NCBI GenBank assembly: GCA_950295325.1
Contig: OX485807.1
Coordinates: 11,559,001-11,623,000, forward strand
Source: Polytrichum commune
Lineage: Eukaryota; Streptophyta; Polytrichopsida; Polytrichales; Polytrichaceae
Direction: 5' to 3'
DNA: 64,000 nucleotides
Part shown: positions 9,310 through 55,122 of the stretch, piece by piece
Layout of the letters: the number at the start of each line of letters is the position of its first letter
How positions within the stretch are numbered: the first letter of the stretch is position 1
The notes under the pieces: generated by a model
The model's input: the letters and a program-made list of their open reading frames with translations, nothing else
Database searches by the model: none
What the model was told of the DNA's origin: nothing
Translations under genes and position numbers: made by a program

Positions 9310-10827
9310 ATCCTAGTACACATATATCATGTAATCAATTTAGTTCACACAACCTTAAAGTTAACAAATTAAAAGTAAAAAACCCTAGGAAAGAGAGGGG
9401 AGGTGCCTCTGGTGTTGCCACCAATGTGGATTATGATGTTACGTCGCCTTCGAGGTGGTCGAAGTCTCAATATAATCCCTAAATGGGCATTACAAGAGGG
9501 GCTCTCAAAGACTACTGCCTTGTTTCAAAGGTGAACCCCTGAACGGGTGGGGACTGGTGGATCTGCCCCAAAGGCAAGCCCTCAAGTTCTCACATGGTTG
9601 CTTGAAAATATCCAGTTCACCCATATACTCCACTATGATTGCGTGGACCATAGTGATACGGTGCACCGGAAAATATGTACTAAAAGGGTCACCCTCTGAG
9701 CACTATCCCAGCTTTAGGGTGGGTTAACCTTGGAGTTCAAGGGAACCTGGTTAAGGTCTTGGGTTTCAGCCACCTTTAAGAATATCCCATATACAAGACC
9801 ACGACAAAAGAATTTCCCAAGATGTTTCATCAGATTTCCTATCTCTTTTTGACCTGGCCTGATCTGAGCAGAAGAGAATTTCCACAAGCGGGTCTAAGAG
9901 TAAACGAACTCTGACGAGAAATGACACCTATAACGGAAATATATGTGATCACATCGTTGCATTACAAAACAACACATAACAATTGCAATCCTAAAGCTCT
10001 CGAAAATGACAAGGATCGGCACGACTCTCTTGTCTTGCATGAATCCTTCTGACTGGACAGCGGAGAAGTAGAACTACATTTCCTCGAGAGTAGAGACCAT
10101 GCTAGGATGCAAACTTCTAGCTGTGCTACACCATAACTACATTGTTTTCTCTAATTAGTGTGGGTGAACATTGGAAGTTACACATTGCTGTAAATTTCTA
10201 CTAAGAGTATCAATTGAAACCCAAGTAACATAAGTAGTTAATATGCACACCGAAGAATATGATATAACTTAGTTGGTAAAAAACGATAATGTTGGTAAAA
10301 CATTATAGCAACACGTAACTTCAAATGATAACCCACAATAATTAAACAAAACAATGTAGCTAATGACCAACGTTAGAAGCACCCCTGCATGGCACAAATA
10401 CCTCCATCCTTCTCATTTACATCTATTTTACATATGTTGTCGAATTTAGGCAATGGAAGTTCAGTTATTTGTTGAATAATGTTATGACCAGACGATGTTT
10501 AAATGTAAATTAGTTGAAAAGTATTTATAATTCAAATCTTGTAAATGAGAAAGAAATTAAAAGCTAAAAATGAAAGGAAGTTGAAAACTGGAACATTACC
10601 AATATTACCAACATAATTACCTCTTCTTTTTGTGCTTTTACTTTACTTTTCTAAACGGTGTTCTCTACTTTTACTTTTGTTACATATATATATAAATTAG
10701 TACTTTTGCAATGATGATGAACTTTAATTTGATTTCCCAACTTGTTTACTTCTCTGATCATTCTAATTGTTGAGGTCGCAAAGATATCGGTGAAATTTGT
10801 CATTGACAAGTTTTGGTCCACATATTC
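9310..10827. other. Intergenic, no gene recognised
   Basis: AT-rich sequence without long open frames. 9380-9800 is somewhat less AT-rich and could be a retroelement or gene remnant, but I see no LTR ends, primer site or protein similarity. Confidence 0.35.
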
Positions 10828-43845: not shown

Positions 43846-43945
43846 TGTAAAAAATCCACGGTTATAGGGTACAAATGGTGCCTGAAACCAACATCGATCA
43901 TGTCCCCTCCTCACTGCTCACATGTCACCACTCACCACTCACATG
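43846..43945 (+). mobile_element. Right terminal region of the older relic element (left part)
   Basis: TCCACGGTTATAGG... followed by CTCACTGCTCACATG matches, in the same orientation, the right end of the younger element (54986-55060: TTCCACGGTTATAGG ... TCCTCACTGCTCATAAG). It directly follows the relic methyltransferase gene, so it is that element's right end. It stops at the insertion point of the younger element and seems to resume at 55101-55122 (CTCACATGATAGCACTCCC). Confidence 0.7.
43935..43945. repeat. Left target-site duplication of the 11-kb transposon
   Basis: CCACTCACATG here is identical to 55101-55111. The exact length is 10 or 11 bases depending on how the element ends are aligned. 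Confidence 0.7.
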
Positions 43946-44035
43946 GAGGGAAGCTATCTTATGAGCGATGAGCAGTGAGCGGTGAGCGGTGAGCAGTAAC
44001 ACATGAGCAATGAGCAGTAACATATGAGCAATGAA
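43946..44035. repeat. Left terminal inverted repeat
   Basis: Starts GAGGGAAGCTATCTTATGAGC and continues with GAGC(A/G)(A/G)T units. It is inverted relative to 55030-55100. Confidence 0.8.
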
Positions 44036-44275
44036 TCCAAATTTAGTAAAGACACACGGGTTTAGGGTTTACAACCAAAATTTTGACAAATTAATTGCAT
44101 ATTTTCAATTGTAAATTGCCAATATTTTAAATGAAGCACAAGTGAAAGGGCCCTATTTCCATAAATCATTTAGAACACTTTCAATCCATTGCTGATTTTT
44201 ATTATAATAATTCAAACCAATACTTGTCATTTATTGACATCCTTATACATATAGCTACAACTAGCACTTGTACAA

Positions 44276-44395
44276 CTACTCACATTCTACAACACCAGCA
44301 AATTCAAGTAGGTGCATAACCGCATTATACATATATGTCGGTGCCATAATTGTGAGCCACTCAAACTGCCCACAGGTTGAATAAAGGCCCAGAAT
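44276..44395 (-). CDS. Second open copy of the transposase terminal exon
   Basis: On the minus strand, an acceptor (TTTCTTTTGTAG, ending at 44396) is followed by 39 open codons and a stop (44276-44278). The end, APTYMYNAVMHLLEFAGVVECE split around the Met, closely parallels the C-terminus of the main transposase frame (APTYTYNEVMQLLELAGI...). The flanking 3' sequences (44158-44275 and 44730-44851) are also duplicated. It could be an alternative last exon or a leftover of an internal duplication. Confidence 0.55.
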   Translation of the reverse strand: MLGLYSTCGQFEWLTIMAPTYMYNAVMHLLEFAGVVECE

Positions 44396-44454
44396 CTACA
44401 AAAGAAAGAAAATTAGATATTAGAAATAATGAATATGTAGGTAGCTACTAGGTT

Positions 44455-44640
44455 TTGAGACATCCGCCTGTGGATGCGAGTTGTGTAAGAGACTGGTATT
44501 AGGTCTGGATCAACCCGGGTTCGAATCCGGTTGGTTACATTGACTGGTGCTATCCCAAATTGAGCTAGTGATAAAGCATAAATAATCTATAGGCGGATAC
44601 CAAGAAGACGTTACTACGCGGATGTGCGTAGAATCTTCCT
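44455..44640 (+). repeat. Possible SINE with a pol III B-box
   Basis: GGTTCGAATCC at about 44519 is a perfect B-box. An A-box is not clear upstream. The segment sits between two copies of the transposase 3' end and has no partner in the window, so its nature is uncertain. Confidence 0.25.
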
Positions 44641-46150
44641 AATTATTTTTTATTTTTAGAAACGTGTTATTATTTATCCGTGTGAATCAATCAAACCACA
44701 CATGGTTGGGTCGCAGTCTAAATAAAAATGAAGTTACTGAATCATTTGAAATACTTTCAGTCCACTGCTAATTTTTATTATAATAATCCAAACCAAAACA
44801 TGTCATTTATTGACATTCAAATATATGTTGCTTAATAGAACACTTGTAATACTACTCACATTCTATAATACCAGCAAGTTCAAGTAGTTGCATGACCTCA
44901 TTATAGGTATATGTAGGTGCATGAATGAATTTGTCACTCTCGTAATCCACCCTGCACAAAAATCTAAACACATAATAAAGATGTTTACAATACACCCATT
45001 TTCCTTTCTTTCCCAATGCATGAGAGGACATTTTCGTGAAATCTGGACATGTGCAATGCGGGATATCGCCAATTGTGACATGGTAGGTGATATCCTGCTT
45101 GGAGACAATGTTGATTATCACTCCAAAGCCCGGATATGGAATGGCAGTGACCCCAACCACATAATAACCTTCCATGAGTCCGGCGCTCTCCCATTTGTTT
45201 TTGTGATCCGCCAGAGGTGCTGTTGGATTACGATGCATTGTCTTCCCAAATCTGAATGTAGGGTGGGCGTTTGGGTTTGGTGGCATAGAAAAATGCGAGC
45301 GAGGGATGGGAAGAGTTGCGATTGTTGAAAGCCTACGACGAGGAGACAATGCCTCCCTCTGCTGTAGTTGAAATCCAGCATCTTCAAGTGCCAAAACCTC
45401 CTCTCTCGATAGATTGGTACCTATTTTCACTGGCCACATGTTGGGTACTATAGGCCAATCCAACACATATTTCTTCTTACTGCCACTCACACAACGTTTG
45501 ATGTCGTCAGGACAAAACCAAAATTCATACTCCACATTGTTGGGAGAGCGAAATTCCTTCCTGAGCCCTTTGTATGTTGGAGCAGGTGTGCCATGTTTCC
45601 CAGTCCCGACTTTGGCATTGCACATAGTCCCTGCAATGGCCTGCAGTGCCCAACATCGTTTGGCTGAGTTGGGTGGTAATCTTGCAATGTGCCACTTGGA
45701 AGCAAGACAATTTGTCTCTAACACGGATGTAGTATGAGCCACACCATGAATTGCGGAACTCAACGATTCCTCTATGCGTTGACGAGTTGCTCGGGTGTTG
45801 GGACGAGGAATGGAATAGTTCACTTTGTCGGGTCGATGAAAGTCACAATCAGCACCCGGTGGTAGGTTGAGTTTGCGTTTGGTGGAACCAAAGAGCTCTG
45901 ACCCTTCCAATGCACAATCTCTCGTGTTGACGTCTTCTGCCCCTGGATAAGACTTCATGGCATTGGCCAATATTTTTGGATCTCCACACCTGGCAGCTAC
46001 TTTGAGTTTCAAGGAGGCCGAATCAGGACCTTTACCATCAGACCCCCTTTCAACCATGTCCGGTAATTTGCAATTTGCATGAAGGCACGGATCATGTCGT
46101 CCACTGTAGCTTCATATAAACAAGTCATTTTGTTGCCAGACTGTAGGAGC

Positions 46151-46481
46151 CATTTGTTGTGTACAGTCTCTGCAAGGTTGCATGTTGGCATTTCCGCACG
46201 CTCTTCTATTGTCATATCCTATGAACAACACACAAATATAAGGATAAGACAAACATAACATAGATTATATATCTAGGTTTGGATCGTTCGACCCAAAATG
46301 GCTGCCACGTTTGGGTCGAACGACCCAAACTGCCTACAAGTTTGGGTCATTCGACCCAAACTGCATACAAGGTTTGGGTCGAACGACCCAAACTGTTTGT
46401 TGTTTGTTGTGTACAGTCTCTGCAAGGTTGCATGTTGGCATTCCCACACGCTCTTTTATTGTCATATCCTATGAACAACAC
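46151..46481. repeat. Duplicated exon-intron junction flanking the first palindrome array
   Basis: 46151-46231 (GTGTACAGTCTCTGCAAGG ... ATATCCTATGAACAACAC) recurs at about 46401-46481 with a few differences. Each copy contains the transposase exon 2 acceptor, so the intron holds a second, outer acceptor. The palindrome array lies between the copies. Confidence 0.85.
46277..46393. repeat. Array of four near-palindromes in the transposase intron, 31-32-bp spacing
   Basis: Four 22-bp sites start at 46277, 46309, 46340 and 46372. The consensus is the half-site GTTTGGGTCG, two bases (AA or TT), then CGACCCAAAC; individual copies differ at 0-3 positions. Spacers are short, like TGCCTACAA. Three helical turns separate the sites, so all present the same DNA face. 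Confidence 0.95.
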
Positions 46482-48684
46482 AGAAAGACAACGATAAGAA
46501 AAACATAAGATATATTACATTGAGTAATGAAGTTTGATATGTACTTACAAGTAGCATATGGCCACCCCATTGCCTGTACCGAAAGTGCTAAAATCCCAAC
46601 CACTCTGAAAGGCCAAGAATGCCTTCTTCGAAGGCAGCTCCAGATGACAACCACCAAGAACGAATCACATGGTACTTGGTCTCAGCGTCATCCATTGTTT
46701 TCGCGTCTTTGTAATCCTTGCATATTTGTTTGTATTGAAATTGCAAGGATGGTTTGATACACTTTTGGGTCACCTTATCCAAGCTTGTGGACCAATGAAA
46801 AAAACATGTACGCTCACGTGCAACCATGGGTAGACTTGGATCACCATCCCCGTAAATCGCCCTCACCGCATTCCAATTAGCTTGAGCACTATCAGCCATA
46901 AACCCTTTGAAGTTTACGTTTGGTACACCATTTTCTGCCATGACAGCATTCAAATTTTCCCAAAAGAGAATTTGTGCTGCACCATCTTCAGATTGCATGT
47001 CACAACACGTAATAGTCAACACTTTACAGTATCGACTATCGTACACATGGCAAGCCATGGTCGTCCAGTCCTTCAAACGTTTGACATGGTCAAACATAAT
47101 CCATGAATTCTCCATATCCCCACCGACTTGCATCCTCTTCACAAGCTCCACACCACTACCTGGAAGGTCTACAGACATCTTAAAAACAAACACTTTGTCC
47201 TTTGACTGCCCTGGGAACCGACTACCATGGACGAATTTGAAAGCAGAGTGGTTTTTGAGCGCCATAATACTATCCATAGTTCCCATTCCACTACGCAAAA
47301 AATGCTTTGATCCAGCTACAAAGTTACAACAATTTGGAGACGCAAAAGTGCTGAATTTGTCCATGACGACCTCTAGGGATGAACCAACCAAGTGATGGCC
47401 TTCGACATTTGCGGGAGATTTGAGAAGGTAATCGGCCAAGAATTGTTTGCTCGCCGCCATAACTATGGCTGAATTTTTTGTTGTGGGTGTTTTCAATACT
47501 TCATTTACAACGCATTGGTATGCCATGTCCAATGATTCACGGCATGTGCCATTGGCCACAGGGTGATCATGTACACCAAGATGAATGCAAGCCCTGGACA
47601 TTCCAACGGATGTGGAGTGGATATATATGATTCGAGCATTACACAAAGCAATGCACACAGGTGTGGAACGACATACCTTACACTCGACAGTGGACTTAGT
47701 AGGAGGAACAACACCCACAGCAAATGGGATAGGAGTTGAACCGGCCCATTCAGTGTTGTTCCGGAGGCCCCCATTGCGATTCATGTAATCACAGTAGTCA
47801 TTATGACATGGGAGATGACCAGCACAAGTAAAGCGCCGGAAGGACAGTCCAAAGTCATTTTGGATATTCGTGGTTTTGGTGGTGCACCAAGGGTGGCCGT
47901 CGCACATCTTGTCCATGCCGTCCATTGAGCGACCATACGTACTTGGAGCTTTGAATGTCATAGGAGGCAAGAGAAACAAAACATCACCATTAAAAGAAGA
48001 TGGTAAGTACTTGACTTCACGAACATCTATATTGTCAAAATCAATGGATGCAAGATCGGACTTTGATCTTTTTCTTGACTTTGTCAGCTTCAAGGCATCA
48101 ACCATAGTCAACCCTGTAGATGAAGGTGAAGGGTGTAGTGGAGGACGTTGAGAAGGTGAGATTTGGGGAACCTCCTTCTTGTACATAAGACCGCAAGGGG
48201 AGTTGGCTACATGTATAGGAAGTTGGGAAGGAGTAGAATGAACACTTCTAAATGGAAATGGCGATGTGTTTGAAAGATCAACAGATGCACAAATGTCATA
48301 TTCTGAATCTGATAGCACAAACACACTATCATCAAGGGGTTCCACCTTAACAGGTGCGATAGAGGGAATTTGAACTGTGGATGTACCGGATTCGTTTGTC
48401 AAAATGACAGTTGAAGCTTGCATCTGAGACTCAGAAAGTCCTATCACCCTAAATGAACCAGGTCCTAAGATCCACATAAAACCAACATCAGTTCTATTTT
48501 TTGGAACCAAAATCGTTTCATACACCTCTCCATCTGCAGAGTACATCTCATGCTCTAAATACATGGTTCCTATCTGGAGGTTGAATCTCAAACTAAGTAA
48601 ATCCTCTGAAACACTCACATGACCATCATCTTGGAGTGGCAAGATGAAGGGAACAAAAGATCCATGAGCTCTAATGGTAGCCAT

Positions 48685-49216
48685 AGAAAATCAAAAGAAC
48701 ATATGAACAACACATCACAAAAATATGGGATGAATGTTGCTTTTGTATAGAGTTGTGTGAGGAAATGAATGGAAATGAATGGAAATGAAAACGTGTGATA
48801 CAATAATGGATGGAGATGAAAGCGTGTCATACATAGCATCTAATAATACAGAAGTGGACATAATACAATAATAGTCAGAGACTATATACAAGCAAGATAT
48901 ACACAAAACAGTGTCAAATACTAAAAGTATTGGTAGAAATTTAAAATATATATATGTGGACTGACGAATATGTAGAAAGAATTAAAATTGGTTAGAAAAA
49001 TAAATTATTGATCATTATGAATAGAACAAAGTAGGTGTCAGAAAATTTTGGCGGATATAACAAAAATAAATACATAATAACAAACGCGTCGAAATATCTT
49101 GTTCATTGAACGCCAATTACAACATGTGATCGTAATATACGCCGGATTTTATGAGATAGATACATTGGAAGAATAAATGATAGTACCTGATAGAAAACAT
49201 ATCATAGACACCAACG
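48685..49216. promoter_or_regulatory. Shared intergenic promoter region of the divergent transposon genes
   Basis: 532 bases separate the two start codons, which point away from each other. A TATATATA run at about 48946-48954 could serve the transposase. I see no clear TATA box for the plus-strand gene. A short GGAAATGAATGGAAATGAAT repeat lies at about 48760-48790. Confidence 0.5.
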
Positions 49217-49679
49217 ATGGTGGACGATGTAGAGAGAACACCCCTGAGGCCGAAGAGAAGACGTAGGAAAGCTTTGTATTTCACTTCCGAGAAAAAGAGG
49301 TTCAGACTCAGTGTGGGAAAGAAGGATGTAAAAAAAGAAGGGAAAAGAAACTTGTTGAATACGGTAGAAGAAACTGTGAAGACACTGGATTTTGATGGGA
49401 TGGAGGATGGTGAAGGTACAAAGAGCAAAGAAGATGTAGACGATCATATATCAGAGTCCGAATTGAAGACGGGTTCAAAGAAGACGACAAACAAAAAGGT
49501 AAGTCAGTTCAACGTTCACATAATTTGATAGTGCATAAGTTGTAAGTTAGGACGGAGAACCATATACGTTCATTCACATGTCATGTAGTAGCAATTTATA
49601 GATGTTATAAATTGGAGAGGAGAAACCCTATACGTTAATACACATGGAATATAACAGAAATTTAGGAAGGCTAGAAGTC

Positions 49680-49910
49680 AGGAGGAGAAAGCACAGGGTT
49701 TATAAGAACAACTTGGGAGACGACAAGTTGGGAGGTAAAATCCTGTACGTTAACGCACAGGGTTTATAAGAGTAACTTAGGAGGCAAAAAGTTGGGAGGC
49801 GATTTATAAGCGCAACTTAGGAAGCCCAAAGTTGGGAGGAGAAACCCTGTGCGTTAACGCATAGGGTTTGTAAGCGCAACTTAGGAAGCCCAAAGTTGGG
49901 AGGTAAAACG
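49680..49910 (+). repeat. Tandem repeat around GTTAAC palindromes in the methyltransferase-gene intron
   Basis: Phrases TTTATAAGCGCAACTTAGG (or TTTGTAAGCGCAACTTAGG), AAGTTGGGAGG and CCTGTGCGTTAACGCA recur about three times with a unit near 100 bases. The palindrome is part of the unit. Confidence 0.7.
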
Positions 49911-50379
49911 ACTAGGAGAGCCTAAAATTAAAACAAATATCTATTGTATGAATTTAAATCGATGTTCAGAACCTAGGAGCAAAAAAACTATTGAAAACGT
50001 CGTTAGAATGCAAGAAATGAAAAATATGACTAGTCAAGTACTCATGCAATACGTTATAGGAGCTAGAAAATGACACAAAATAACATAAATTTTTTTTTGC
50101 CCAGAAACCCAAAATCTACGAGGTGGCCCAAAACAAGGAAATACATAGAAGAATGAGAAAAGAAAATCATTTCAAACCAAAATAAAATATGAGAAGCATT
50201 TGTAGCTACGGAAATTTTGATAATATAGCATATTTTTTTTATTTTTTTTTAGTCCCCATTAGCATTTTTTCCAGATTTTACAAGTTTTGGCAAATCTACA
50301 AAAAAAAAAATATTTTTTCAAATTCACGTCTCGGCCCTGTGCGTTAACGCACAGGGTGTATGCGTTAACACATAGTGGC

Positions 50380-50506
50380 TAGAAAGTTGCCAGCGCAGAC
50401 CCTATGCGTTAACGCACAGGGTCTACTTGCCTAGCTAGAGGCTTCGCAAAGTTGGGCAAGTAGACCCTGTGCGTCAACGCACAGGGTCTGCGCTGGCAAC
50501 TTTCTA
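50380..50506. repeat. Large hairpin made of two palindromes
   Basis: The left arm (TAGAAAGTTGCCAGCGCAGA... to ...GTCTACTTGCC) and right arm (GGCAAGTAGAC... to ...TCTGCGCTGGCAACTTTCTA) pair over about 52 bases, with a loop of about 23. Each arm contains one complete GTTAAC-type palindrome, so cruciforms could form at two levels. Confidence 0.9.
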
Positions 50507-50560
50507 TCGGCTATGGGGGCCACGAAGAGCCACGCTAAATATGGCTGCAGGAACAAGTAG

Positions 50561-50567
50561 TATAAAT
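50561..50567 (+). promoter_or_regulatory. Candidate TATA box inside the first intron
   Basis: TATAAAT is followed 25 bases later by a CT-rich stretch (CAGTCTTTTTTCTCTCC), a plausible start site. A transcript from here would carry the second palindrome array in its leader and could splice into the exon at 51116, starting translation at ATG 51125. Confidence 0.35.
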
Positions 50568-50721
50568 TGCCACAACCCCAAAGCATTCAGTCTTTTTTCT
50601 CTCCTCCGTCGGACCTAAACTCATCGCTGCAAGCTCTCTCATCTATAGGTGCAGTACAAGGTTTGTTTGCACTTTCGTGGTGACTGGGTAATTGCGCATA
50701 ATCAGGCGTAAATTGCGGACA

Positions 50722-50839
50722 GTTTGGGTTGTTCGACCCAAACTGTGAGCATGGTTTGGGTCGAACGACCCAAACTGTGAGCATGGTTTAGGTTGAACGA
50801 CCCAAACTGTGAGCATGGATTGGGTCGAACAACCCAAAC
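50722..50839. repeat. Second array of four near-palindromes, exactly 32-bp spacing
   Basis: 22-bp sites start at 50722, 50754, 50786 and 50818. They have the same half-sites as the array at 46277-46393 (GTTTGGGTCG, two bases, CGACCCAAAC) with 0-3 mismatches. The 10-base spacers are CTGTGAGCAT or close variants plus GG/TGG at the joint. Count and period equal those of the other array, 4.4 kb away in the other gene. Confidence 0.95.
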
Positions 50840-53800
50840 CTCGCGTCCAACTTTGTTAGACCTGTAGTTGGACACACAGACCCTGTGCGTTAACGCACAG
50901 GGTCTGGCCTTGTAGTTTGGGGTGAGCGGCCACCCTAATCGTACAATATTTAAAGGTGCAAATGGCTGTGTCTAGAATAATTTTTGTCATTCTTCCCTGT
51001 GTTCGTGGTATTCTGTTGTTATTGTTGTTGCTATTGCTGTTATTTTTGTAATGTTATTGCTAATGTGTTGCTACTTGTTTTGAAATATTTATGAAATTTA
51101 TTTCATTTGTTTTAGGACCAATCAATGGATTTTGAAAGAACGACTCCTATTTCTACTGATGATGATTCCACAATGCATTCAACTCAAGATTATCCATTTC
51201 AACAAGTTTATCATCATGAGGACATATCGTCAAATCTTCATAATAAGAAAAAAAAAAAAAATGAATCCCTCGATGATTTTGACTCAGATGAAGATAATGA
51301 TGGTGACAATAAAACTTATCAAGAGAAAATGTGGGAGCTTACGAACAAACGAAAGGTCAACTCCACTTCCACAATTTCTTCAATCCGTGCTGGACCTAAT
51401 GCTCGCTTGCGTGTACCCTTATGTCGCATGGTTCCTATGCCGATTGCGCGTCCAGCTTTGAAGGGTGACATTACTAAATTGGAGGCTGATTTTTTCAATG
51501 GTTATCGTGATGGTGACCGTGTGTTTTATATATCGGCCACCGATTCTAAGGGAAACTTTCAAATTGGGCTCAAGCCAATGCCCTATTTAAATTTCAATTA
51601 GATACAAATTTGTCATTGACGTCATACAAGAACAAGATGTTTTTCATATGGGATGGAAATCACAGATTTCTTGCTTGGAAAAATTATATTGACCGCGTAT
51701 ATACCGAAAATTATGAACGACATGTCTTTGTGGATTCTATCATTTTGGCGCCCGAGCCTGACGACATTCCAAGTTTGTTGACTGCTATGCATGACATCAA
51801 CAAGTAATGTTCTTACCTATTTTTTTACACTTATTTCTAATTTATATTTTGTTTTCCAAATTATATCATCATGAATCTAATCAATTTAATGTTTCTTTTA
51901 GGTCAACCGAAAATTCTCATGTATCCACCAATTTGGTGCATACTTTATATCGGATGCAAAGTATTGGCACCATGCCTTTGACTTCCTTAAGAAAGTAACT
52001 GGATCCAAAGAATTATAAACGATGTGAGGAAAAGTCCATCGAAACTTGATATTCTTTGACACGACCAATTTTTTTGGATTACATATACAGTGTAAGTTCT
52101 TCTACCATTGCTTATATGTGTCTTATGTTTATTCACCTTCATTTTACATTACATCTATATGAACTTATAAATATTGACTTTTGTTTGATTTTTCAGCAAG
52201 AACTTGTTGAGGCTAGCGATATTGCTCTCAACCAGTACAATGAAACTCATCCTCTTGAACGGACATCAGACGGAGTTTCAAAAGCAATGTCCGCAGCTGT
52301 CAACAAAAAACGTGCAATGTTATCTTCTAGTTTTACGAAACAACTAGCGATTGCCGATATCAACCTTACCTTTGCTTTCCTTGAAGAAGTTAAGCACCAT
52401 TGGGGTTCATTTTCGGTGCCTGAAATGCTACAAGAGAAACTTCATCGTGTTGCTGTCAGTAATGTGGATGCAGAAGTCAAAGTTGGATGGCTCAAGCTTT
52501 GGAATGGCAATAGATTTGACAAAGATGCATTACATTTCCCGAAATCACCCCTCTCTGATTCTGCACTTGATGATTGGTTATCAAAGTCTACATATTGGGC
52601 ACAGTTGGAAAAAAAGGCTATCGAAGAGCTTCAAAGTATTCTTTCATCTCCTCTTCAGTTGCCTGCAGATGTGCCTATTCTCTCCGAGTATATCCAAACC
52701 TGGAAGTTTTGCGGCTTTCAATTCAATATTCTATCGTGAATTCCAAAGCGGAAAAGTTAAAAAACACAACGGTTGGGATGAGCAACCTAATATTGATCTT
52801 GCTATGAAACGTGTATTATACAGGTACAACCTAATCTTATTATTTTTTGATTTTTTGATTCTATTTATCAAATTGTCATGGAATATTTGACTTACAATAT
52901 TTTTGTGTGTAGGTATTTTCGATATGTTTTGATTCCACATAAATGCGTTATATGGGAACCTCGTTTTTTCCCAAATTGGCGTGACACTATTGCAGGAGAT
53001 TCATGCATGTTCACTACTGAGATTTGTTTGAATTGGTCGCTCCCACACTATGAGGATTGTGGTTTGTATCTTGATTGTCCTAAGGATGTATGTCCGTCAA
53101 GTGAGAAGACAATCCATCAGATAAATGATGCTAAAAATGTGGATCTTCGTGATACTGCAATTTTGCAAGCACAAATTGTGCAGCTTAAACTTAGAGAGCC
53201 AGAACCAAAAGAGACAAAACGTCGTAAGACGAAACATGTTCCTGAAACCAAAATACAAGATCAATCGGAAATTTCACAACATAAAGAATTGCTTGTTCTT
53301 TCCAATGATTTGGATAAGAATCCACTTGGAGTCGAAACTTCAAAGTTTGGGTGCGATGTATTGGAATTCCATTACTCGAGCACCTATGACGCTATTCATC
53401 GTGCGCCAACGAATGCTTTGAGAAAAAAAGTTATTCATACTGAAGAACTTTCTCACGCTCTCTTTTGCTCGATCTACTGCTGTTAAGAACAAGTCTGAAG
53501 GGGTTGAAGTAGGCCCTCCTGAGTGGATCCAATGGCGGACATTTCTTGAAAACGTAAGTATTATTATTTTGGTATTTTCTGTAATGTTCTTACTTTTATT
53601 TGGATTTTATTTTGTGTCTTATATTGTGATATGTTGTGGTATTTCAGTTCAAAGACAATCGCGAATTTCATGTCATGGGAAGTCCGGCTCCATTTGCCGT
53701 TGACTTGGTTTTTCTGCAATTTCCCGACGGTCTTGACTTCAACCTCTCCAATAGACCTGCTGAAATTCCTCTTTGGAATAAATATGACAAGAACTGGATG

Positions 53801-55019
53801 GTTGCAACAATGTCCTTGTGCAAGTCCATCTTGTCTGATGATGGCGTCCTCATAGTATTTTCTGCTATCGATATGCAAACCAAGATGGTTTTGAATTCAA
53901 CCTTACACAACGGCAACATGAAAGTTCTTAGGACTTTTATTTGCCTCAATTCGTACATGGTGTTCAAGGATCCGGAGTCTCCAACCTACACCGTAAGTAT
54001 AACACATCACAATTGTTTCTATTTAATTATTTTGGTGTTATTTGCATTGTATATAGTTTTAATACAATTTATATTTTTTTGTAGACTCCGGCATTTATGG
54101 CTCATGTCTTGGTAAGGGATTTTACTACCACAAAATCCACGAGACAACCAAACTCCACTTTTTTTGGCACTGGATTGAAAAGCAAAAACTTGCTTTTTAA
54201 TTTTGTGGATGAAAAAAACATGTTTCTTCAAAAATCGGGAAGACCTTGGAGGGGGCCATATCAAAAATCGCCGCGTTTTTTTTTAAGATCTTATTGAATT
54301 GTTTACACCATCGAATGGACGCGTTGTTGATTTGACATGTTCCACTGGAGCTTCTATCCTAGCAACACGCGCATGTGGCAGACATCTTCTTGCATTTGAG
54401 GGTGATAATGACATGTTTGAGCACGTATTGAAACCGCTTTTGGAAAACGTTTTGAAAGAGGGGTCATCTGAGGAGAATATACAATATCTCACAAAAGAAG
54501 ATGATAACCTCTCAGATGAGGAGATGCTTGAATTTGAGTGTGAGTAAGTTTTAATACAATAAATTTTTATTCAATTCATTCGTTTCATTCAATTCATTGG
54601 TTCATTTTTATTTCTTCACATTATTTACATGTTTCATCGATTTGATTTCAGGAATACGATTGGAAAGAGGACATGTCTCCCGTTTTGGGCACATAGACAA
54701 TTCCTACGAAGTCCAAGCCGTAGCCCGCATCTCCCATCATATGCCGAGAATGTTCCAATTGCAATGTTGAATCTCGAAGATTCGGATCCAAATGAAGAAT
54801 CTTGCTATAGTTCCAAAATCAATTCGCAATGCAAAGGTGCTCGAATATATATAGATGACGAGGCAAAAGATAGTTTCATGTCTAGTGCTACTACTGATGA
54901 ATAAATTTTTGGACTTCATGTTGTTTATCCTTCTCAACCCTCTTATTACTAAACCCTAAAATCATCATTTTTAAGGCCACAATTCCACGGTTATAGGATA
55001 TTGGTGGCCCTATTACCAA

Positions 55020-55100
55020 AATTTTCATCTTCCTCACTGCTCATAAGTTACCGCTCATCGCTCACCGCTCATTGCTCACCGCTCATAAGATAGCACTCCC
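55020..55100. repeat. Right terminal inverted repeat
   Basis: CTCATCGCTCACCGCTCATTG... to GCTCATAAGATAGCACTCCC is the inverted counterpart of 43946-44035. Confidence 0.8.
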
Positions 55101-55122
55101 CCACTCACATGATAGCACTCCC
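55101..55122. repeat. Right target duplication plus displaced end of the relic element
   Basis: CCACTCACATG (55101-55111) repeats 43935-43945. The following ATAGCACTCCC repeats the terminal sequence of the younger element (GATAGCACTCCC). It is best read as the last bases of the older element's right terminus, cut off by the insertion. Confidence 0.65.

Follow-up and report, generated by a model that had tools for sequence, protein, structure and literature searches.

Genes for VANC, Ulp1, SET and TET/JBP proteins have been described on DNA transposons in the accessible literature. According to the available text of PMC5735166 and PMC10398659, the VANDAL elements with their VANC protein combine a conserved transposase, a diverging second protein, and arrays of motifs that lie within introns and upstream. 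The available part of PMC5735166 (Hosaka 2017, on Arabidopsis) further reports a much stronger conservation of VANA than of VANC, and binding of VANC to motifs in tandem repeats, which are found upstream of VANA21 and, in VANC21 and VANB21, within introns. Here, we describe an 11,156-bp transposon of Polytrichum commune, which pairs a transposase gene with a divergently oriented accessory gene apparently derived from a DNA methyltransferase and which carries palindrome arrays in its non-coding DNA. The analyzed copy is located in a stretch of 64,000 nucleotides (hereafter the window; assembly GCA_950295325.1, contig OX485807.1) at 11.56-11.62 Mb of contig C5 in our numbering.

The element resembles VANDAL/VANC as a Mutator-like element (MULE) type transposon with a conserved transposase, a fast-diverging second protein, and element-specific motif arrays in introns and upstream, whose copy number varies between copies (compared with the accessible part of PMC5735166). 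It differs in the protein itself, which has DUF1985/DUF287 in VANC (same source) and is methyltransferase-derived here, and in the long palindromes; a Pfam scan of the intact protein (1,173 aa; E up to 5) revealed neither DUF. VANDAL ends are described in the available text of PMC6446971 as lacking or short and degenerate, compared to inverted ends of about 70 bp here. DIRS1 retrotransposons are likewise eukaryotic mobile elements with a methyltransferase domain of unknown function, but they are retroelements carrying it in the pol region together with reverse transcriptase and RNase H (PMC3266345, accessible part). DNA transposons with TET/JBP or SET genes, including MuDR families with SET in Phytophthora, also have epigenetic enzymes aboard; these belong to other enzyme classes, and the accessible part of PMC12730594 does not mention an amino-methyltransferase-derived gene. 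In the literature searched (mostly non-subscription sources, Repbase excluded), which covered MULEs with methyltransferase, ParB or VANC-like accessory genes, we found neither this gene nor any other MULE whose accessory gene derives from an amino-methyltransferase. The element probably carries an accessory factor that acts on the element itself and derives from another protein than in the known systems.

Structure and distribution of the element

The element, assigned to a family termed A, spans positions 43946-55101 of the window, with ends defined by eight colinear copies and by duplications in seven of these eight. By comparison with other copies, it starts at 43946 with GAGGGAAG... and ends at 55101 with ...GCACTCCCC, and it is flanked by the 10-bp target-site duplication CACTCACATG at 43936-43945 (left) and 55102-55111 (right). 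The inverted arms in the window (43944-44014 and 55033-55103; 71 nt) are 85% complementary. The left terminal inverted repeat covers 43946-44034 on the plus strand, part of it being a minisatellite of TGAGC-type units, and the right one, delimited by inverted-arm comparison, covers 55033-55101 on the minus strand. The inverted termini and the 10-11-bp flanking duplication noticed in a first-pass annotation of this DNA were therefore both correct. A 10-bp direct repeat, differing from copy to copy, surrounds the same terminal sequences in 7/8 of the fetched copies with two ends (shared strings of 10-12 bases as printed; 10 bp with the ends set as GAGGG...CCCC), whereas the end of the eighth (c2) runs into satellite.

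Searching the whole genome (408 Mb, 64 contigs) at the protein level gave 193 matches, with 42/2,953 candidates scored, and at least 42 family-A loci were grouped from the matches listed. Ten other copies (c1-c10) were fetched for comparison with the window element. In eight of them, both genes are colinear with the window element from end to end, mostly with 94-98% DNA identity outside the repeat region and 84-92% inside; c5 and c10 match from the accessory gene onward only, within the stretch fetched. A search with the transposase listed at least 93 matches out of 3,375 candidates. Among the listed family-A loci, 30/42 have a listed transposase match within 20 kb, always divergent and upstream, compared to 0.4 expected from random placement. 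The same arrangement was found for 7/11 listed rows of a sister family, termed B, again all divergent and upstream. These findings support a multicopy transposon family carrying both genes between the same termini, in line with the transposon family inferred in the first-pass annotation. Since 30/42 family-A loci are linked to a transposase, the accessory gene of this family is not an ordinary host gene located away from transposon ends.

The minus-strand half of the element comprises the transposase and the plus-strand half the eight-exon accessory gene. The first coding part of the transposase (46588-48690; a 700-aa frame with an ATG at about 48684) is followed by an intron inferred from the reading frames (46219-46587) and a second coding part (44852-46218), whose frame is broken once in the window and open over 455 aa in c1. 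A SWIM-like CxC...CxH finger in the second part and a DDE-like pattern were recognised by eye. The Pfam SWIM model gave E-values of 0.18 (window), 0.1 (c1) and 0.039 (family B), at 11.8-14 bits below the cut-off of 19.6. Searches for a canonical MULE transposase were negative: the Pfam MULE model (PF10551) did not match, canonical MULE transposases from this genome scored 0.1% in a profile comparison with an effective depth of only 1.07, and the PDB sequence search gave no such match. MULEs are characterised by target-site duplications of 8-11 bp, inverted ends in many families and a SWIM finger (PMC6446971, accessible part). The earlier description as a MULE-like SWIM transposase agrees with the finger seen by eye, the 10-bp duplication and the inverted ends. 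We retain the label "MULE-like" because of the duplication length, the inverted ends and the weak SWIM match, with PF10551 and the profile comparison remaining without a match.

The ratio of non-synonymous to synonymous substitution rates (dN/dS) of the second transposase part ranges between 0.14 and 0.24 for c1 versus the window, c4, c6, c7 and c9; it is 0.46, 0.77 and 1.23 versus c3, c8 and c2, with few changes each. The first part showed 0.47-0.61 in the c1 comparisons. All dN/dS comparisons in this study have c1 in common and are hence not independent.

Two repeat structures were observed in this half of the window element. A 118-bp direct repeat (91%; 46153-46270 and 46403-46520) lies on both sides of the palindrome array within the putative transposase intron and duplicates the start of the following coding part, which may show how the array intron arose. 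In the left part, a tRNA-like B-box (GGTTCGAATCC) at 44440-44660, judged by eye as a possible insertion of a short interspersed nuclear element, sits between 181-bp repeats (44164-44344 and 44740-44920).

The accessory gene and its methyltransferase homology

The structure of the accessory gene was derived by comparison with copy c1 (C1:63980010-63991737; 11,728 bp), in which eight predicted exons, separated by GT-AG introns, form a frame that stays open for 1,173 codons; exon 1 is joined over a 2-kb intron by splice site and frame alone. In the window, all exons are on the plus strand. Exon 1 (49217-49498) provides the start codon and a charged low-complexity region and is followed by intron 1 (49499-51115), a possible promoter region with palindromic repeats that are partly degenerate in this copy. 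The WDGNHR motif lies in exon 2 (51116-51803). Exons 3 (51902-52091), 4 (52197-52823) and 5 (52913-53553) precede the methyltransferase motif IV region in exon 6 (53648-53992; VDLVFLQFPDG) and a motif X-like plus motif I region in exon 7 (54085-54543; RPWRG...VVDLTCSTGAS...FEGD), and exon 8 with the stop codon ends the gene (54652-54904). The window frame is broken in exons 2, 3, 4 and 7 and shifted near the end of exon 5, amounting to three internal stops and five frame-breaking gaps in the best alignments to c1. Copy c2 is open across the same 3,522 coding bases, so that two of the ten fetched copies (c1, c2) have an intact frame. Internal stops number two in c3, one in c6 and four each in c4, c5, c7, c9 and c10, compared to none in c1 and c2; c8 has none, with one frame-breaking gap. 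The divergent eight-exon gene with a GNHR motif (DGNHR in the window) and methyltransferase-like motifs that had been proposed from the window alone was thereby confirmed.

Comparing c1 with the nine other copies and the window resulted in dN/dS values of 0.16-0.47 for the accessory gene. The deficit of amino-acid changes was significant in all five comparisons subjected to Fisher tests (c2, p = 5.5e-5; c3, p = 4.9e-4; c6, p = 1.1e-6; c8, p = 4.1e-4; window, p = 2.0e-4). These results show that the accessory coding sequence bears the signature of purifying selection.

With regard to the nature of the protein, the METHYLTRANSFERASE part (exons 6-7 of c1) matches Pfam N6_N4_Mtase with an E-value of 1.8e-4 at 21.9 bits, not reaching the cut-off of 26.7, and the phage family phrog_67 (DNA methyltransferase) with an E-value of 6.2e-8. 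A search of the genome with PF01555 gave 83 matches and revealed family B, of which three 577-aa frames were scanned: all exceed the cut-off (32.4, 35.3 and 29.9 bits; E 1.5e-8 for family B), L043 matching profile positions 1-216, and L042 and L044 matching best over the motif I half only. A profile of element-type proteins aligned with three phage-type ParB-methyltransferases in the half that contains motif I (91%, E 1e-6). Based on the Pfam and phrog_67 matches and this alignment, we consider the homology to beta-class exocyclic-amino DNA methyltransferases to be real. The relatedness to amino-methyltransferases suggested earlier is therefore upheld, by family B above the Pfam cut-off and by phrog_67 for family A; the suggested profile search of exons 6-7 identified an N6_N4_Mtase homologue, family A alone staying below the cut-off. 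Further searches were less informative. A PDB sequence search with family A gave a single match, an adenine-specific DNA methyltransferase (5hek; E 0.98), and no close relative emerged from tblastn against phage records, in which 43 records had E <= 1 and the 15 displayed reached 2e-3 at best. For the family-B fold model (predicted local distance difference test, pLDDT, 41; predicted template-modelling score, pTM, 0.39), 205 PDB matches with E <= 10 included none with E <= 0.001; beta-class DNA methyltransferases fill the top 17 of the rows shown (E 0.06-0.74; TM-scores near 0.2), in weak agreement only with a methyltransferase.

The catalytic motif of beta-class amino-methyltransferases is [DNS]PP[YFW]. 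This motif is absent from the accessory proteins read in families A and B and in two further groups, C (L051, L052, L055) and D (L053), which are 26-40% identical to B in aligned pieces. Motif IV reads LQFPDG in family A (LQFSDG in c8), VDIPDG in family B (VDIPYG in L043), ADLPEG, ADIPEG or VDQPEG in group C and VNLPEG in group D. The aromatic residue of DPPY is accordingly replaced by an acidic one in nearly all copies read of the four groups, the exception being one family-B copy with Y, and in family A the first residue of motif IV is no longer acidic either. Motif I is DLTCSTGAS in family A and LDLSVGTGAS, LDFSVGTGAS or LDLFVGTGAS in family B. Since motif IV departs from the catalytic pattern, we refer to a methyltransferase homologue and do not claim activity. 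[D/N]xP[D/E]G has been conserved across three groups, which suggests a modified but constrained site and not random decay. Active DNA methylation by the accessory protein is possible; for family A, the degenerate motifs IV and I and the acidic residue in place of the aromatic one make a DNA-binding or regulatory role more likely than catalysis. The idea of a transposon that "brings its own DNA-modifying enzyme" is thereby weakened.

The alignment of the groups places motif IV ahead of motif I, in agreement with the permuted order noted before. Phage and bacterial ParB-methyltransferase fusions (L040 on contig C12; L056, L057) share this order and the C-terminal PF01555 domain, but have DPPY, a glycine-rich motif I and, by Pfam, ParB_N (L040, L057), none of which was found in the element protein; unlike them, the accessory gene has introns. 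L040 is a complete intronless ParB-methyltransferase frame of prokaryote- or phage-like appearance. It belongs to the strong N6_N4_Mtase matches on the small contigs C10 and C12 (L039, L040, L041), which are probably contamination.

A ParB-like domain, assumed in the first-pass annotation from the motif in exon 2, was not borne out. The WDGNH(R)xxAW motif and its surroundings are common to both families (36% identity in 167 aligned columns), with P in place of R in WDGNHR and one stop upstream in the B copy read. No ParB match was obtained for the accessory protein in Pfam or NCBIfam at E up to 10, and the PHROG matches of the candidate region were phrog_9020 for A (unknown function; E 0.017) and phrog_1220 for B (head protein; E 0.0058). 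The positive control, the phage-type protein L040, was recovered as ParB in Pfam with an E-value of 3.4e-11. A ParB profile comparison was negative (0.2%) at an effective depth of only 1.3. The fold model of the region (pLDDT 41, pTM 0.35) gave 189 PDB matches with E <= 10 and none with E <= 0.001, and ParB was not among the 50 shown for this low-confidence model. ParB ancestry is therefore unsupported, as no profile matched in the libraries that found ParB in the control, and the putative relation remains a lead based on the WDGNH(R) motif alone.

Family divergence and palindrome arrays

Family B was analyzed in one element at C1:9.65-9.66 Mb (L054 and L043), whose left end is outside the fetched stretch. 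Of the 11 B rows, eight were confirmed by translation (L042-L044, L046-L050) and two assigned by score pattern; L045 showed no motif in the scan. At the DNA level, B and A are 84-89% identical in the transposase half and 84% in the last 184 bp, with the same final ...ATAGCACTCCCC, and no DNA match was found between these two parts at E 1e-5. The accessory proteins are only 23-38% identical. The sister family has thus kept the transposase and the right end with a radically different accessory protein. Given this contrast, the accessory gene appears to evolve, or to be exchanged, much faster than the element chassis. Family B has, in addition, a protein-kinase-like frame between the palindrome array and the accessory gene (L054:6599-7760; LGRGSYGVVWK ... 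HCDLSFTNI ... DWG), which matches Pkinase with an E-value of 1.5e-4 at 21.7 bits, below the cut-off of 31.7, when its pieces are joined with X.

Families A and B each have their own palindrome arrays, situated in non-coding DNA within and next to the genes. In the window, an array of the GTTTGGGTCG(AA/TT)CGACCCAAAC type lies in the inferred transposase intron (46276-46396, minus strand), and intron 1 of the accessory gene contains CCCTGTGCGTTAACGCACAGGG-type units (49542-49903, 50336-50502 and 50863-50918) and TTTGGGTCG-NN-CGACCCAAA-type units (50714-50840). The latter type is found in both introns in family A. In seven copies counted, GTGCGN4CGCAC occurs 4-8 times and GGGTCGNNCGACCC 3-10 times per copy. 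Family B carries the palindrome TTGTGCGCTRGCGCACAA within a tandem unit of about 105 bp in the region between the two genes. Its exact form TTGTGCGCTAGCGCACAA has nine sites at eight loci genome-wide, each within 7.2 kb of a family-B methyltransferase match; genome-wide family specificity was established for this exact palindrome only. GTGCGYTARCGCAC occurs at 756 sites and TTTGGGTCG-NN-CGACCCAAA at 9,731 sites in the genome, versus none for the reversed control in either case. The invariant 9-base arms and variable centre of TTTGGGTCG-NN-CGACCCAAA, together with arrays of differing unit length (spacing about 32 to 78 bp among 100 matches listed), suggest a dimer-bound site common to further families. 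Among the same 100 matches, clusters of about 10 kb on C1 (616-626k, 1,181-1,191k and 2,116-2,126k) look like further elements.

The C-type relatives occupy at least 123 dispersed positions among the matches listed and fall into similar subfamilies, so that they appear repeat-like; two are direct neighbours at C5:7.88 Mb. One C-type gene has, in an intron ahead of a coding exon, a 137-bp tandem array containing 11-13-nt inverted repeats. For linkage analysis, 24 C rows were labelled by score pattern among the about 69 PF01555 matches left without the three C10/C12 and 11 B rows; only the L051 row was translated as listed, L052 coming from another row.

Proposed role of the accessory protein

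We see an even chance that the element is a MULE-like transposon whose methyltransferase-derived accessory protein acts as a self-targeting, palindrome-binding anti-silencing factor. Such a protein would bind DNA sequence-specifically at the palindromes of its family, on own-family copies and probably as a dimer, and by analogy to VANC it would locally oppose host silencing or regulate transcription. In family A, the methyltransferase domain may now be a scaffold, altered or devoid of catalysis; family B may retain binding of S-adenosylmethionine.

Several observations weigh against this interpretation. The accessory protein has no recognised DNA-binding domain. The window copy has three sites only of each core palindrome (GTGCGN4CGCAC and GGGTCGNNCGACCC), and its three perfect palindromes of at least 14 nt are inside the shuffled range (mean 0.99, maximum 4, 200 shuffles). 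Three of the 11 listed B rows have no exact B palindrome nearby, counting the exact form and leaving out the CTGG variant. TTTGGGTCG-NN-CGACCCAAA is probably not family-specific, as its genome-wide count exceeds the likely content of family A. Alternatively, the transposase might use the palindromes, or they may have arisen as by-products of replication or recombination. Moreover, 8/10 fetched copies are decayed in the accessory gene by internal stops or a frame-breaking gap, and C-type genes show next to no linkage to the transposase of the element (0/24 labelled rows; 3/123 positions versus 1.1 expected) or to PF10551 transposases (2/123 versus 1.7 expected).

Four other explanations have to be considered. 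A working N6-adenine or N4-cytosine methyltransferase might modify the DNA of the element, perhaps at the palindromes, for protection or de-silencing. Family B would fit, with its near-canonical motif I (LDLFVGTGAS or LDLSVGTGAS), the acidic first residue of motif IV and scores above the Pfam cut-off, but LQFPDG (LQFSDG in c8) and DLTCSTG in family A and the D/E in place of the DPPY aromatic throughout the four groups, one B copy excepted, make active self-marking unlikely. We give slightly less weight to a protein that assists the transposase without an epigenetic role, as has been proposed for mudrB of maize, even though all linked copies show the divergent pairing, the accessory gene is under selection, and additional open reading frames are present in several MULEs, mudrB being apparently needed for integration (PMC6446971, accessible part). 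A helper binding the element ends would not be expected to diverge to 23-38% identity and to accompany differing internal arrays where the right end is conserved at 84%, and this contrast in tempo between A and B argues against it.

A captured passenger gene of no function for the element would be in line with the frequent gene capture by MULEs (PMC6446971, accessible part), the decay of most copies and the kinase-like frame of family B. It is nevertheless improbable, because dN/dS is below 0.5 in every accessory-gene comparison; the eight-exon frame is intact in c1 and c2, and homologous accessory genes occur in two families with the same transposase. Least credible of all is the chance assembly of the transposon into a family of ordinary host genes. 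The C-type homologues, hardly linked to the transposase and adjoining at one locus, point in this direction, but they are dispersed like repeats, and for A and B the idea is already contradicted by genes that travel with the transposase, in family A with defined ends. Finally, a bolder version of the anti-silencing interpretation deserves about as little weight as the helper. According to it, an amino-methyltransferase of prokaryotic type recruited by a plant transposon would have become a rapidly evolving, family-specific palindrome-recognition factor co-evolving with the intronic arrays, an independent equivalent of VANC, with some families (B) still methylating their own DNA at adenine or cytosine-N4.

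If the palindromes are indeed the targets of the accessory protein, plant transposons would have evolved motif-array anti-silencing on several occasions and from unrelated proteins, and the mode of action of VANC would represent a general strategy. The families would then also offer natural orthogonal pairs of a DNA-binding protein and its palindromic site. Should family B be catalytic, it would allow a direct test of the controversial question whether plants use amino-methylated DNA bases, and methylation by its protein would constitute a self-inflicted DNA mark other than 5-methylcytosine on a plant transposon. Either way, an amino-methyltransferase-derived gene joins the epigenetic genes known on transposons.

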